In this document: positions 2,125 through 8,419 of the stretch, one piece after another | Layout: the number at the start of each line of letters is the position of its first letter | Position numbering within the stretch: position 1 is the stretch's first letter | Program-made: the position numbers and the translations under genes | Virus record (IMG/VR): IMGVR_UViG_3300042398_000322 | Span: 1-33,222 of that record | Source: a virus | Strand: one strand, 5' to 3' | Length of the DNA: 33,222 nt | The notes under the pieces: model-generated | Told to the model about the DNA's origin: nothing | Seen by the model: only the letters and a program-made list of their open reading frames with translations | Databases searched by the model: none

Positions 2125-2150
2125 AAAAAGAGGGTATCAACCCTCTTTTT
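2125..2150. terminator. Bidirectional intrinsic terminator between converging units
   Basis: Perfect 10-bp stem AAAAAGAGGG / CCCTCTTTTT with a 6-base loop TATCAA, with a T run on either strand. It ends the plus-strand unit (stop at 2104) and the minus-strand replication unit (stop at 2151). Confidence 0.88.
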
Positions 2151-2555
2151 TTATATGTTATAATTTATCTTTTCTAACTCACATCCTTTGTCCATTAGAT
2201 ACCTTATCACCTCCTCACTATCAATCTCACTTGGAATTGATACGATTAGCCTTGTTGGTATGAGATACTTCGCTGCGATACAAAGATTAACCTGATCAAT
2301 GAACTGCTTAGTTATCTCATCCCCTATACTAAGCATATCCCTCACCTTTGTTATACCATGAATCACAGTAGTATGGTCAGCACCAAATAATGACCCAATA
2401 TCAACCAATTTAAGACCCATTTTTTCCCTTGCAATGAAATAGTAAGCATGACGGCAAAGAACGTAGCCACGCGCTCTATTTTGGCTCATAATCTCACTCT
2501 CTGGTATACCACTCACAAATGCAATGACTGACAGCAAATTCTCTTTAGTTAACAT
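2151..2555 (-). CDS. Stand-alone DnaA domain IV-like DNA-binding protein
   Basis: 134 residues. Residues 3-75 match the C-terminal DNA-binding domain of the initiator DnaA: an N-terminal helix, RGYVLCRHAYYFIARE (29-44), LKLVDIGSLFGADH (48-61), and the DnaA signature DHTTVIHGITKV (60-71), which reads the DnaA box. The AAA+ ATPase domain of DnaA is absent. The remaining 60 residues are unrecognised. It lies just beyond a 376-base non-coding stretch with iterons, next to the primase-helicase, so a role in phage origin recognition is likely. A decoy that competes with host DnaA is an alternative. Confidence 0.8.
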   Translation of the reverse strand: MLTKENLLSVIAFVSGIPESEIMSQNRARGYVLCRHAYYFIAREKMGLKLVDIGSLFGADHTTVIHGITKVRDMLSIGDEITKQFIDQVNLCIAAKYLIPTRLIVSIPSEIDSEEVIRYLMDKGCELEKINYNI

Positions 2556-2582
2556 ATTTATTTATTTAAAGTGTATAATATA

Positions 2583-2604
2583 GTACCTTGCATTGCCAAG
2601 TACC
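2583..2604. promoter_or_regulatory. Imperfect inverted repeat upstream of the DnaA-like gene
   Basis: GTACCTTG-CATTGC-CAAGTACC: the arms pair except for one bulged base. It is about 28 bases before the ATG at 2555, where an operator or leader hairpin could act on the DnaA-like gene. Confidence 0.35.
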
Positions 2605-2673
2605 CTCTCTTTTATCTTTATTGACCTTTCTTTTATCAATGTAAATATATCTTATTAAGTTATCAAGTTAGTA

Positions 2674-2723
2674 ACCAAGGTTTACCACAACCACCACAAC
2701 CAAACCCCACCAAAAACCTTGGT
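2674..2723. repeat. Inverted repeat with C/A-rich loop in the probable origin
   Basis: ACCAAGGTTT at 2674-2683 and AAACCTTGGT at 2714-2723 are exact reverse complements of 10 bp separated by 30 bases. The loop on the plus strand is almost only A and C (ACCACAACCACCACAACC...), a strand-biased composition often seen where DNA is unwound or primed. It lies between the primase-helicase and the DnaA-like gene. Confidence 0.6.
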
Positions 2724-2864
2724 AACGTCAGAACGCGATATTTTCATCTTTTCTTCTTTTCTATACACTATACTTTTGCAAAAAAATATAGGTATACCCT
2801 AAAAAATGAGAAAAATGATGTTAATCACGTCTCCACATTGATTATCAACCACTTACGAACCCAA

Positions 2865-2894
2865 AATCGCGTTAAAATCGCGTACCAATCGCGT
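2865..2894. repeat. Three iterons, AATCGCGT every 11 bp
   Basis: AATCGCGT occurs at 2865-2872, 2876-2883 and 2887-2894, exactly 11 bp apart, so each copy sits on the same face of the helix. The core ATCGCGT recurs inverted at 2733-2739 and 3018-3024, both extended to ACGCGATATT. DnaA-box-like TTATCAAGT (2660-2668) and TTATCAACC (2842-2850) flank. The 2556-2931 stretch has no gene and is best read as the replication origin or a regulator-binding array. Confidence 0.65.
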
Positions 2895-2931
2895 TCCCAA
2901 GCAAAAATGACGTATCCAAACTATATAAACA

Positions 2932-5430
2932 TTAGAATAAATCATCATATGTCTCATTTGTTTTATTAAAGTTATACATCTTTTTTCCTCCACTACTTTT
3001 TTCTCTCTTACTTTGGTACGCGATATTCAGAATTTGACATGACTCCTCCAACCCTTTGGTAAACCTTTTAACCGAGTAATCTTTCTTATCAAAACCACTC
3101 ATGAGCATAAAGTCATTGTAAAGCTGTTCCAACTTGATCCACCCAACTTCTTCCTCTACCACCTCCAAGAAGTATTCAAGGAACTCCTCCCCAAACTGCA
3201 CTCTGATCTGCTTGCGTTTAATCTTATCCGAAGATTTAACCTCCAACACTCCAAACTCAAGGTATCCTTGTACGCAATCAAACATCAAATTATAGAACCT
3301 ATTCCACTCATCTTTATCCCAATCATCAAAAAGCTTATGTCCAAACTCATCCTCTGGTGTCCGCTTCGGCCCAAAGTATCCGCTAAATTCCAATACCTTC
3401 TGCCTCCTCTTTGCGTGGTTACCCGAATTAGGGATAGTGTAGTTTGTGGTGAACATAACCTTTGGTGAGTCAGAATAAGGGATAAAAAGCTCATCCTTGT
3501 TCTTCTTTTCAACAGTGATACCTTCAGTTATGATGCTATAAAACCCTTCAAAATCAACATTCCGCCTTGTATCCTCAATTGCAAGTATCCTTGTATCCAG
3601 GTCAACCCTTTGAAAGGCAAATGACTTGTCAAACTTGAAGTTCTTGCCATCAACCCGAACAATATTGAGCAGATACCCCAATGCCTTCACGAATATCCCC
3701 TTTCCTGTTCCTCCTCCATTTGCTTCCTTCTCAGTCTCCTCTGCCAAGATCACCGAGAATGGCCTTGAAGGGTCTTTATAATTGTGCAATAAATAGCCTA
3801 TTAAGCCTAAAGCATAGATATACCTATCCTTGTCCGAATCACTAATCTTCTCAATAAATCTGAAGTATTCTATTTTCTCAAGCTCAATATCCCCATCAAT
3901 CACAATAAAATGGTCAATAACTTGTGATTTCCAGACTACTTTCCCTAATTCGCCATAACTTTTTAGTTCAATCTTGTCCTTCCCAACCACCACAACACCA
4001 TTCTTAAACGGGAAAAACCCTTCATTCTTGGTATCTTTCAAAAAACTAAGCTCTGCCCTCTCAAAGAACTCAAAAAAAGCATCAGAGAATAGCACAGTTG
4101 CCCCTTTGTAAATCAACTCAAGTAAATCTTGAGGTGTGACCCCGCCATCAAACGAGTCAGGTAACTTATCCACATAATCCTTGATAAATCTTTTAATCTG
4201 CTCTGTACTTGCCTCCTCAACAAATCCATCTTTAACCCGAACGAGTCTGTAAATGGTTGACCCACTATCGTAGAAGTATAGGCGAAAACCACCAATTGTA
4301 GTAAGAAACACTTGCAATTTGTACCGATTTATACTTGCTTTCCCTTTGTCATCAACATCCCAAAAGGTACAAATCTCATCTCCCCACCGAGCATCAAGCT
4401 CATCCACCATCAATTCTGCATCTTGAAGCGATTTATTGTGCTTTTTTACCAAAATCGTAATCAAATCATCCTTACTTGCCCCATCATTCTTCTTTGAAAA
4501 CAACTCTCTCTCTACCTTGTCACCGAAGGATGTTTTTTTTTCTCCGAACCCCATGTCAAGCAACTTCCGCGCAGCAAGCTTAAAGTCTCCAGATGTTTCC
4601 AAAATGGAAAAAACTGCTGAGAGCTTGTATCCTTTTTGCACAGTAAAAGGTGTGTTGACCGAAAAGACACTAAAAAGTCCCAAACCTTTATTCCATGATC
4701 CACTATGCTCAGCCTTTGACCCTGGTCTTAAAAAAAAAATACGTTCACTATTTTCTTTTACTACCACCCACCCATTGCGAGTCATCAGGTCAACAATATC
4801 TCCTCTCCGATTGTAGTCATCAAAAGGCGATACCCCATAATCTTTGGTTGACGGCCTCTGATGAGCCTCAATTATCGCTTCTTCAAAGATTTCGTTGAAG
4901 GAGCGCATAATCTCAAACAATACCTCGCGCTCATCAAGCGAGATGACATTAATCCCTTCTTGTTCAATTTCGTAGCCTTGTGTAGGCGGTGCAACAACAT
5001 ATCCACCTTCTCCCCGCGTCTCAATAATTGTATAAGATTTGATGGAAGGGTTATTCTTACTTTCTTCCAATGTTGGTAATCGCTGTGCGAGTTTTTGATT
5101 GCCTTCAATCGCCTCGCATTTATAGATGAGGTGTTTGCCATTGGAACGGGTTTTAACGATGTGTAATTTGTTATAAAGTTCAGAAGGAATAGCCGATTGT
5201 ATAGCCTCCCATAGGTCATAAGTCTCATACTTTGTATCAATGTCAATGACCTCAAGATTGCCACTCACCGCCCCACAAATAATGGCAACCCCTTTTGCCC
5301 TATTATCTGCCATTTGACGAGCTAATTCTTCTTCCTTTATCATTTCCTCTTGGTAGACCTTCCAAGGGAAAATAGCCTGCTTATTTTCATTTACAGCAAT
5401 AGTATTGATGCCGAGTTGTAAGTAGTTCAT
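2932..5430 (-). CDS. Primase-polymerase / SF3 helicase replication protein
   Basis: 832 residues. The N-terminal domain (about 1-190) is a bifunctional primase-polymerase of the Prim-Pol/AEP type: VIDIDTKY supplies the DxD metal site (D63, D65), GKHLIY the conserved His (H100), and ETRGEGGYVVAPP (137-149) the later strand. The C-terminal part (about 500-700) is an SF3 helicase with Walker A GGGTGKG (572-578), Walker B-like RILAIED (614-620), sensor KVMFTTNY (N663), and an arginine pair in KRRQK (674-678). The far C-terminus looks like a DNA-binding winged helix. The protein would prime and unwind phage DNA at the adjacent iteron-bearing origin. It starts 5 bases after the VRR-NUC gene. Confidence 0.9.
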   Translation of the reverse strand: MNYLQLGINTIAVNENKQAIFPWKVYQEEMIKEEELARQMADNRAKGVAIICGAVSGNLEVIDIDTKYETYDLWEAIQSAIPSELYNKLHIVKTRSNGKHLIYKCEAIEGNQKLAQRLPTLEESKNNPSIKSYTIIETRGEGGYVVAPPTQGYEIEQEGINVISLDEREVLFEIMRSFNEIFEEAIIEAHQRPSTKDYGVSPFDDYNRRGDIVDLMTRNGWVVVKENSERIFFLRPGSKAEHSGSWNKGLGLFSVFSVNTPFTVQKGYKLSAVFSILETSGDFKLAARKLLDMGFGEKKTSFGDKVERELFSKKNDGASKDDLITILVKKHNKSLQDAELMVDELDARWGDEICTFWDVDDKGKASINRYKLQVFLTTIGGFRLYFYDSGSTIYRLVRVKDGFVEEASTEQIKRFIKDYVDKLPDSFDGGVTPQDLLELIYKGATVLFSDAFFEFFERAELSFLKDTKNEGFFPFKNGVVVVGKDKIELKSYGELGKVVWKSQVIDHFIVIDGDIELEKIEYFRFIEKISDSDKDRYIYALGLIGYLLHNYKDPSRPFSVILAEETEKEANGGGTGKGIFVKALGYLLNIVRVDGKNFKFDKSFAFQRVDLDTRILAIEDTRRNVDFEGFYSIITEGITVEKKNKDELFIPYSDSPKVMFTTNYTIPNSGNHAKRRQKVLEFSGYFGPKRTPEDEFGHKLFDDWDKDEWNRFYNLMFDCVQGYLEFGVLEVKSSDKIKRKQIRVQFGEEFLEYFLEVVEEEVGWIKLEQLYNDFMLMSGFDKKDYSVKRFTKGLEESCQILNIAYQSKREKSSGGKKMYNFNKTNETYDDLF

Positions 5431-6993: not shown

Positions 6994-8244
6994 TCATATA
7001 TTGAAGTCCTTTTTGAAGTGATAGGTTGTGTAATCTTTCTTGTTCATCACCGCCTGATATATCTTGTCCTCAATACCACCACGACTAAATATCCAATGAA
7101 TATTTGCTTCTTTTACCCTATCTTTCGTTTGGATTCTTGCTCTTGCTTGCCAGTAACTAACCGCAGAGAAGTCAATATTTAAGAAAATCAACGCATCAGC
7201 AGTTGAGATGTTTACCCCTTCGCGACCGCTCTGAATCTGAGAGATAAATATCAAATTGGTTGACTCATTGAACACAGTCGCCTCTGTTGTCAAGTTTTCA
7301 GAACCAAAAACATATCTTATTGCCATTTCCTCTGCGATGAACTTATAATATATGGCAATCTTTAACCCATTAAACTTTTCTTTAATGTATTCAACCTTTG
7401 AGTAGTCAACCACCTTCGCCATCCTTTCCGGCTCATCAACTATGACAGTCCCAGAATACACTTGGTGCAATTTTTGCAACAACTTAACTGCTGTATCACC
7501 AAGCACAACTTGTCCTTCCTTATTCCTTACAACCTTATCTATTCGTAACCTATTTGCAAGAGTATAGGTTGACTCAAGCATCTCAACATGATGGATATGC
7601 TCATTTACAAGTGACTCAAAGCCAGCTTGCTCTTGGGTGAACGTGAGGAATAGGTGACCACACAAGTCCATCACCATTTTCTTATCAGCCTGGTCATAGT
7701 TGTTGAAGGACTGACCATTTATCTTCATCTTCTTCACGTTAACAAATTGCGTGGCCCATTTGTAGAAGTTCTGATAGTGGTCAAATGGCGAGTAACTACT
7801 AACCCAGAACTGATGATAAAGTTGAGAGAATGACTCAGGGTTTGGTGTACCACTAAGGTAGATGATAGGCTTTCCAAAGCAGATGCGCTTCAACTCCTTG
7901 GCTCGTGCTGATGGTACAGGAAAGGCACTCAAACTATGCGCCTCATCAATAATGATCAGGTCAAATGACTCATGCACGTTGCCAAGTTGCTCATAGTTGG
8001 TGACATAAAGTGCTATCGTTTTGTTGAATCCAACAAATTGATCCATTATGTCTTGAATGGCTTTCTTCTTGGTAACAAATAGGACTGACTTAGCACCAAA
8101 CTTATGGGCGGTTGCCATTGCAGTTAAAGTCTTGCCAGTTCTAACTTGCATTGCGAGATAAGCAATCTTGTACTTCTTCAGCAGTTCAACCGCCTTATTA
8201 CTTATCTCCTCCTGGTAATCCCGTAATTCCAAGGTGTTGCTCAT
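6994..8244 (-). CDS. SF2 (SNF2-like) DNA helicase/translocase
   Basis: 416 residues. Motif Q-like LRDYQEE is at 7-13, Walker A VRTGKT at 34-39, DEAH at 100-103, and motif III SGTP at 131-134. The second RecA-like half has QSGREGVNIS (motif V) and YWQARARIQTKDR (motif VI, arginine finger). Compact phage helicases of this kind act in replication, recombination or origin remodelling. It sits in the replication operon between tiny genes and the methyltransferase. Its start lies inside the end of the 8198-8419 gene (47-base overlap). Confidence 0.88.
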   Translation of the reverse strand: MSNTLELRDYQEEISNKAVELLKKYKIAYLAMQVRTGKTLTAMATAHKFGAKSVLFVTKKKAIQDIMDQFVGFNKTIALYVTNYEQLGNVHESFDLIIIDEAHSLSAFPVPSARAKELKRICFGKPIIYLSGTPNPESFSQLYHQFWVSSYSPFDHYQNFYKWATQFVNVKKMKINGQSFNNYDQADKKMVMDLCGHLFLTFTQEQAGFESLVNEHIHHVEMLESTYTLANRLRIDKVVRNKEGQVVLGDTAVKLLQKLHQVYSGTVIVDEPERMAKVVDYSKVEYIKEKFNGLKIAIYYKFIAEEMAIRYVFGSENLTTEATVFNESTNLIFISQIQSGREGVNISTADALIFLNIDFSAVSYWQARARIQTKDRVKEANIHWIFSRGGIEDKIYQAVMNKKDYTTYHFKKDFNI

Positions 8245-8419
8245 TATAATAATTTTGTGCTATAAATACTTTCCAATCTTCGGCATGAGCAAATTGTTCA
8301 AGACCATGTATGACTGCATTTTGTATCTGATCGCGTTCCATTTGTAAATACTTTGTAAAGTCAACGCGATTTCCGTTCTTAACGATTTCGTCCATTATTT
8401 CTTTTACTGCTGATTTCAT
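8198..8419 (-). CDS. Hypothetical small helical protein
   Basis: 73 residues, mostly helical: MKSAVKEIMDEIVKNG, QMERDQIQNAVIHG, and a C-terminal YYNEQH. The pattern 'E-x-x-Q-I-x-x-A-x-x-x-G ... YY' recurs in small proteins of many phages of this host group, of unknown role. It contains the iteron core ATCGCGT in both orientations (8330, 8364), probably by chance. Confidence 0.6.
   Translation of the reverse strand: MKSAVKEIMDEIVKNGNRVDFTKYLQMERDQIQNAVIHGLEQFAHAEDWKVFIAQNYYNEQHLGITGLPGGDK

Follow-up and report, generated by a model that had tools for sequence, protein, structure and literature searches.

A stand-alone DnaA domain IV protein beside a putative phage origin: comparative analysis points to the neighbouring primase-helicase as the probable origin reader and tentatively to host DnaA sites as the target of the DnaA-like protein

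The window, i.e. the whole stretch of viral DNA analysed here, is 33,222 nucleotides long and contains, in gene direction, a prim-pol/helicase gene (5430-2932), a gap of 376 bp, a gene for a DnaA-like protein (termed DnaA-C below) and a terminator-like stem-loop (2150-2125). Genes for a terminase and a major head protein on the same contig provide the phage context of DnaA-C. The protein-coding features and the stem-loop are the following.

2932..5430, minus strand: prim-pol / helicase, 832 aa (Pfam Prim-Pol 50.5 bits, DUF5906 33.1 bits)
2965..3189, minus strand: predicted winged helix at the C-terminus of the primase-helicase, the proposed reader of the iterons (AlphaFold2 order H-b-H-H-b-b, pLDDT 82.6)
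2151..2555, minus strand: DnaA-C, stand-alone DnaA domain IV protein, 134 aa (open reading frame; Pfam Bac_DnaA_C 53.4 bits; AlphaFold2 pLDDT 90.1)
2265..2555, minus strand: domain IV fold, residues 1-97, with the helix-turn-helix and DHTTVIHG at residues 60-67 (VIA-align Z 17.2 to 3pvp_A, 16.4 to 1j1v_A)
2154..2264, minus strand: extra C-terminal tail, residues 98-134, with a loop, a helix (113-122) and a low-confidence end (AlphaFold2 model; outside the DnaA match)
2125..2150, either strand: hairpin with an 11-pair stem where the DnaA-C gene ends (3'), resembling a terminator on each strand (terminator scan; pattern match only)

Reading the plus strand of 2151-2555 meets many stops, and the coding frame is that of the minus strand. 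The single Pfam family detected in its product is Bac_DnaA_C (residues 6-71, E 2.7e-14, 53.4 bits against a cut-off of 31.5); no AAA+ domain was found by the same search, and a protein of 134 aa is too short to hold one. Accordingly, the helix-turn-helix of domain IV with its DHTT motif is present, and domains III (AAA+) and I are absent. The NCBIfam DnaA models align by their C-terminal end only, with at most 48 bits against cut-offs of at least 344. The AlphaFold2 model (mean pLDDT 90.1, built from an input alignment of 44 sequences) was superimposed on M. tuberculosis DnaA 3pvp (Z 17.2, 96 residues, rmsd 1.2, model residues 2-98) and on E. coli domain IV 1j1v (Z 16.4, 93 residues, rmsd 1.3, model residues 2-95), both of them structures of domain IV bound to DNA. 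By sequence and model, DnaA-C consists of DnaA domain IV and a short tail and lacks the ATPase, which bears out the initial annotation of this frame, including its DHTTVIHG signature. The 60 C-terminal residues that were described there as unfamiliar are an overestimate: domain IV aligns over residues 2-98 in the comparison with 3pvp and takes up ~97 residues, and therefore only ~37 residues are extra. This tail (about residues 98-134) is hardly covered by the structure matches of the whole model.

Stand-alone DnaA-C proteins are common in phages and have been annotated before, and the gene in the window adds a member to them. Matches at E <= 0.01 were found in 36 records of the phage collection, every one with less than 60% identity, and at E <= 0.001 in 61 predicted viral structures of BFVD; a scan with the family alignment retrieved at least 449 relatives among the 599 stretches listed. 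Many of the BFVD matches carry the existing name 'Chromosomal replication initiator, DnaA C-terminal'; like DnaA-C, the stand-alone proteins among them consist of domain IV only (92-218 aa in the rows listed), although their identity to it is low (14-32% in the rows listed). Known examples annotated in INPHARED come from Pelagibacter phage Skadi, Olleya phage Harreka_1 and uncultured Caudovirales phages, and PHROG 27829, 'DnaA-like replication initiation protein', is a label of the same kind of protein. The neighbour genes differ widely between the phages that encode DnaA-C, and in the four annotated phage records examined they are, unlike in the window, other than a prim-pol/helicase. A search of the titles and abstract starts of open-licence literature yielded no functional work on phage proteins made of DnaA domain IV only. 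In the window, PADLOC reported no defence system and Rfam gave no match.

The neighbouring gene product matches a DNA polymerase/primase family in PHROGs over residues 2-299 and, over residues 329-753, a family without known function; its second half (DUF5906) is presumably a helicase. Its C-terminus, whose AlphaFold2 topology fits a winged helix, has no sequence match in PDB, and the structure matches listed include many winged-helix proteins, with Z values of only 6.5-8.1; P4 alpha is missing from the best 50 listed, which excludes nothing. A homologue of DnaA-C lies 134-535 bp downstream of the primase in 53 of 76 primase-related loci, 9 others being too short to judge and 14 lacking DnaA-C at that place. 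Since relatives of DnaA-C are encoded at 23 loci and this downstream homologue recurs, the DnaA-C frame is not due to chance. The primases of the 14 loci are 31-52% identical to that of the window, and one of these loci (L075) has a weak DnaA-C (23.8 bits, below the cut-off) ~5 kb away on the opposite strand. A primase scan of genome contigs returned only two matches, both distant and in Bacteroidetes MAGs (31-36%).

The gap between the two genes contains the following features.

2556..2931, minus strand: putative phage origin, 376 bp gap from the prim-pol/helicase stop to the DnaA-C start (layout and repeats)
2887..2895, minus strand: iteron, AATCGCGTT on the plus strand, AACGCGATT in gene direction
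2876..2884, minus strand: iteron AATCGCGTA, 11 bp from the neighbouring iterons
2865..2873, minus strand: iteron AATCGCGTT
2838..2848, no strand: palindrome TTGATTATCAA between two iteron blocks (conserved in most relatives)
2732..2740, plus strand: iteron, inverted copy, AACGCGATA

AATCGCGTW is thus present three times at 11 bp spacing and once as an inverted copy at 2732, and the window contains 7 copies of the core ATCGCGTW, where 0.30 would be expected. The repeat region at 2731-2895 has the appearance of an origin. The palindrome at 2838..2848 is, by its consensus, presumably IHF-like; in a relaxed form, a TTGATNATCAA-like palindrome follows the first iteron block in 51 of the 69 loci with enough sequence. 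Among relatives the spacing of the iterons is similar and their sequence divergent, with classes WACRCGATT (the group of the window), AACATCATT-like, TAGYSCATT, TACCACTTT, TTCCACTTR, TGCRCGATT and others, for which frames and class seeds were chosen after viewing the motif-finder output, so that the assignment is not blind. In an automatic 9-mer search the iteron was not the top repeat in many loci, including the window, A/T-rich and G/T-rich repeats being commoner, and the motif finder settled on other repeats in, e.g., L009 and L091. Several further repeats were observed. The gaps of many relatives (L021, L053, L060, L069) have GGGGTTTTTGG-like arrays between the iterons and DnaA-C, L053 having as many as 11 GTTTTTGGC copies, and such arrays are nearly missing from the window. 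A second ATCGCGTT pair, inverted, is found at 8330-8337 (plus) and 8363-8370 (minus) within the frame 8198-8419, far from the origin-like gap.

The iterons adjoin the DnaA-C gene, this layout is kept in relatives, the synteny recurs in 53 of 76 loci, and some of the repeats resemble a DnaA box (by eye, the L057 iteron TTAACCACT has 7 of 9 positions as in TTATCCACA). Adjacency and box resemblance at first sight favour the idea that DnaA-C reads the iterons; as an origin-recognition protein it would bind 2731-2895 and mark the origin for the primase-helicase. Such origin marking was also offered by the initial annotation. Iteron distance indeed shows a positive simple Mantel correlation with the distance of the DnaA-C helix-turn-helix (r 0.39), as well as with those of the helicase part (0.50) and the primase C-terminus (0.61), in 27 representatives of 47 loci (L069 was dropped as truncated and the remainder merged at a distance below 0.12). 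However, given the primase C-terminus, the partial correlation for DnaA-C in the same 27 representatives is -0.24 (p 0.997), and for the primase C-terminus given DnaA-C it is +0.55 (p 2e-4), a value to which linkage contributes, as primase and iterons adjoin each other.

The same direction is taken by the wing of the predicted primase winged helix. In the 20 loci tabulated from the group of the window, the wing REKS.GGKKM accompanies WACRCGATT or WACGTCATT iterons (14 loci) and the wing RDKGSGGKKL accompanies AACAYSATT iterons (6 loci); wing type and iteron class agree in 20 of 20, and DnaA-C does not separate the classes. Over residues 20-75, DnaA-C proteins are up to 88% identical across iteron classes and down to 61% identical within one class. 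Moreover, TACGCGATT-class iterons also occur with DnaA-C helix-turn-helix regions that are only 30-45% identical to that of the window, and in the iteron-bearing primase loci L081-L083 (contigs of 46-64 kb, which may be fragments) no DnaA-C is detectable.

A natural experiment is provided by the L141 group, in which three primase types adjoin DnaA-C proteins that share 94-100% identity in the pairs compared among six representative loci. This DnaA-C belongs to a distant subfamily (33% identical over residues 14-91; Pfam 28.3-28.4 bits, under the cut-off of 31.5). Pfam assigns type 1 primases to DUF3987 and types 2 and 3 to a BT4734-like family; the latter two share 47-49% identity, and blastp at 1e-3 matches neither of them to type 1. 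Each type has its own gap repeat: TTTACAG in 5-9 copies for type 1 (11 of 11 loci), AGGTAC in 4-5 copies for type 2 (9 of 9) and AGTACAA in 3-4 copies for type 3 (3 of 3), compared with a mean below 0.5 copies in shuffled controls; these counts come from 24 of the 27 group members, L156, L177 and L178 being absent and L155 having no typed primase. Among typed loci, only L141 has a repeat of another type in its gap, a single TTTACAG. In one pair, L162 and L154, the DnaA-C proteins are identical over 122 aa, whereas the primases are 47-48% identical and the repeats differ. As a separate observation, a possible stem was noted ahead of the primase start in L150, L154 and L164, where the leaders of type 1 and type 2 primases contain G-rich/C-rich sequence of the form AGGGGTT...CCCCCT or the like.

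Partial Mantel correlations, the L141 group and the wing classes agree in that the iterons track the primase C-terminus and do not co-vary with the reading head of DnaA-C. These comparisons strongly indicate that the iterons are not read by DnaA-C, and the idea of DnaA-C as iteron reader was rejected as the main explanation; as an account of the protein, origin marking is very unlikely. Because all three lines point to the primase, the predicted winged helix at the C-terminus of the primase-helicase is the most likely reader of the phage origin.

The L141 group also bears on an accessory role in replication, in which the C-terminal tail of DnaA-C would bridge DNA to the phage primase-helicase or to host DnaB. 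Primase or helicase genes of several kinds often adjoin DnaA-C, as expected from such a role, and recruitment of the primase-helicase by the tail had been suggested at the outset. This suggestion is disfavoured by analogy, with the reservation that the subfamily is distant and has a different tail: DnaA-C proteins that are nearly the same along their whole length, the tail as well, adjoin a DUF3987 protein in some loci and, in others, BT4734-like primases without detectable similarity to it. In addition, the tails vary between groups and some phages have DnaA-C away from primases, so we regard an accessory role as improbable.

The DNA-binding surface of DnaA-C is well preserved. In the alignment of 44 relatives, the equivalents of E. 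coli R399, R401 and R407 are kept in 44, 43 and 44 sequences and those of D433, H434, T435 and T436 in 41, 44, 39 and 33, all seven being, as we assume, DNA contacts of E. coli DnaA; the mean conservation of the contact equivalents is 0.94 compared with 0.61 across residues 5-75. DnaA-C thus shares its fold and box-contact residues with bacterial domain IV (E. coli 1j1v, M. tuberculosis 3pvp), and differs from bacterial DnaA in the lack of domains I-III, the extra tail and the equivalent of Q408, which is H in 37 of 44 relatives. Because the contact residues are conserved, DnaA-C is expected to recognise DnaA-box-like DNA as before. Such sites show no enrichment in phage genomes: 18 phage records have 26 TTATNCACA sites against 28 for the reversed-pattern control (totals summed by hand over the rows of these records), and the window has 8 copies of TTATCCACA with at most one mismatch, fewer than the 13.0 expected. 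On these counts a cluster of DnaA boxes was rejected as the phage target.

With conserved contacts and no enrichment of boxes in phage genomes, a target outside the phage origin is likely, and occupation of host boxes, which the initial annotation also raised, is the best of the remaining options. We tentatively propose, by elimination, the following scheme. Having domain IV and a short tail and no ATPase, DnaA-C could neither open DNA nor load a helicase. The origin would be read by the winged helix of the upstream prim-pol/helicase, as in P4 alpha or SaPI Rep, and not by DnaA-C. DnaA-C would instead bind DnaA-box-like DNA elsewhere, most likely host boxes (oriC and DnaA-regulated promoters), where it may compete with host DnaA, so that host initiation would be damped or DnaA-controlled transcription altered during infection. 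We give this tentative assignment of DnaA-C to DnaA boxes outside the phage origin, with those of the host as the likeliest, a little less than an even chance of being correct. The occurrence of DnaA-C beside very different neighbours would suit a function that is independent of the type of replicon. Several observations speak against host-box reading: the three-primase comparison is drawn from a distant subfamily, the strong primase synteny in the group of the window could mean a functional link, and the unconditioned Mantel correlation of DnaA-C with the iterons is positive.

The main rival to host DnaA boxes as the target is one or two operators in the phage genome, with which the absence of box clusters is compatible. 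DnaA-C would then be a local transcription regulator that acts on DnaA-box-like operators, e.g. in its own promoter, and times early or replication genes. Full-length DnaA autoregulates its own gene, and L045 and L047 have a perfect TTATCCACA ~36 bp ahead of the DnaA-C start, which suits local autoregulation; in the group of the window, a conserved block GGTACT..GCAATGCAAGGTACTATA is found just ahead of the start. However, this block is not a DnaA box, the box of L045 and L047 is not common to the group of the window, and boxes are not enriched over the 18 records. A local regulator therefore seems to us rather unlikely, and competition at host DnaA boxes is preferred.

Extended to the whole set, this preference would make the free DnaA domain IV proteins that are widespread in tailed phages occluders of DnaA boxes and not initiators, competing with host DnaA at oriC and regulated promoters and uncoupled from the phage origin system; we put this generalisation forward as more doubtful than the proposal for DnaA-C itself. 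The label 'DnaA-like replication initiation protein', on many phage genes, is probably wrong with respect to their own origin in these phages. If DnaA-C does act on host DnaA boxes, it would represent a simple and common phage means to disturb initiation of the host chromosome, and the natural pairs of iterons and wings offer a ready test set for origin specificity.

The proposed origin system has parallels among known initiators. P4 alpha is reported to bind its origin repeats through a winged helix domain (PMC4234260). P4 alpha, SaPI Rep and SCCmec Cch2 are initiator helicases that carry a DNA-binding domain at the C-terminus, as is predicted for the neighbour of DnaA-C; the iterons of SaPI, like those of the window, lie directly downstream of the helicase gene (PMC4234260, PMC7581432). 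The TACCACTT iterons of L055 and L057 resemble the SCCmec Cch2 origin TACCACTTAAT, as quoted in PMC7581432, which may be a coincidence. Primase and helicase are joined in one protein in P4 alpha, and 2932-5430 is alike, its helicase half being predicted. Unlike in P4 alpha, SaPI Rep and Cch2, the primase fused in the window is an archaeo-eukaryotic-type prim-pol, and the iterons are followed by a gene for a DnaA domain IV. With regard to the host, lambda P is an example of a phage protein that stops replication initiation of the host (PMC3640518), the step also proposed as the target of DnaA-C. Lambda P binds the helicase DnaB, whereas DnaA-C is proposed as a competitor for DNA sites.

Elsewhere in the window, the contig ends overlap, the peptide QKYPYREY ending one piece and beginning the other (1-745 and 33222-31894, both minus strand), and this sequence overlap suggests a circular record. 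The gene for the large terminase spans the contig ends. It has an intein in the Walker A region, with Hint and Intein_splicing matches and ...ISHN before SGKTYN, and inside the intein an HNH endonuclease frame (NUMOD4 and HNH_3) is encoded on the same strand in another frame.
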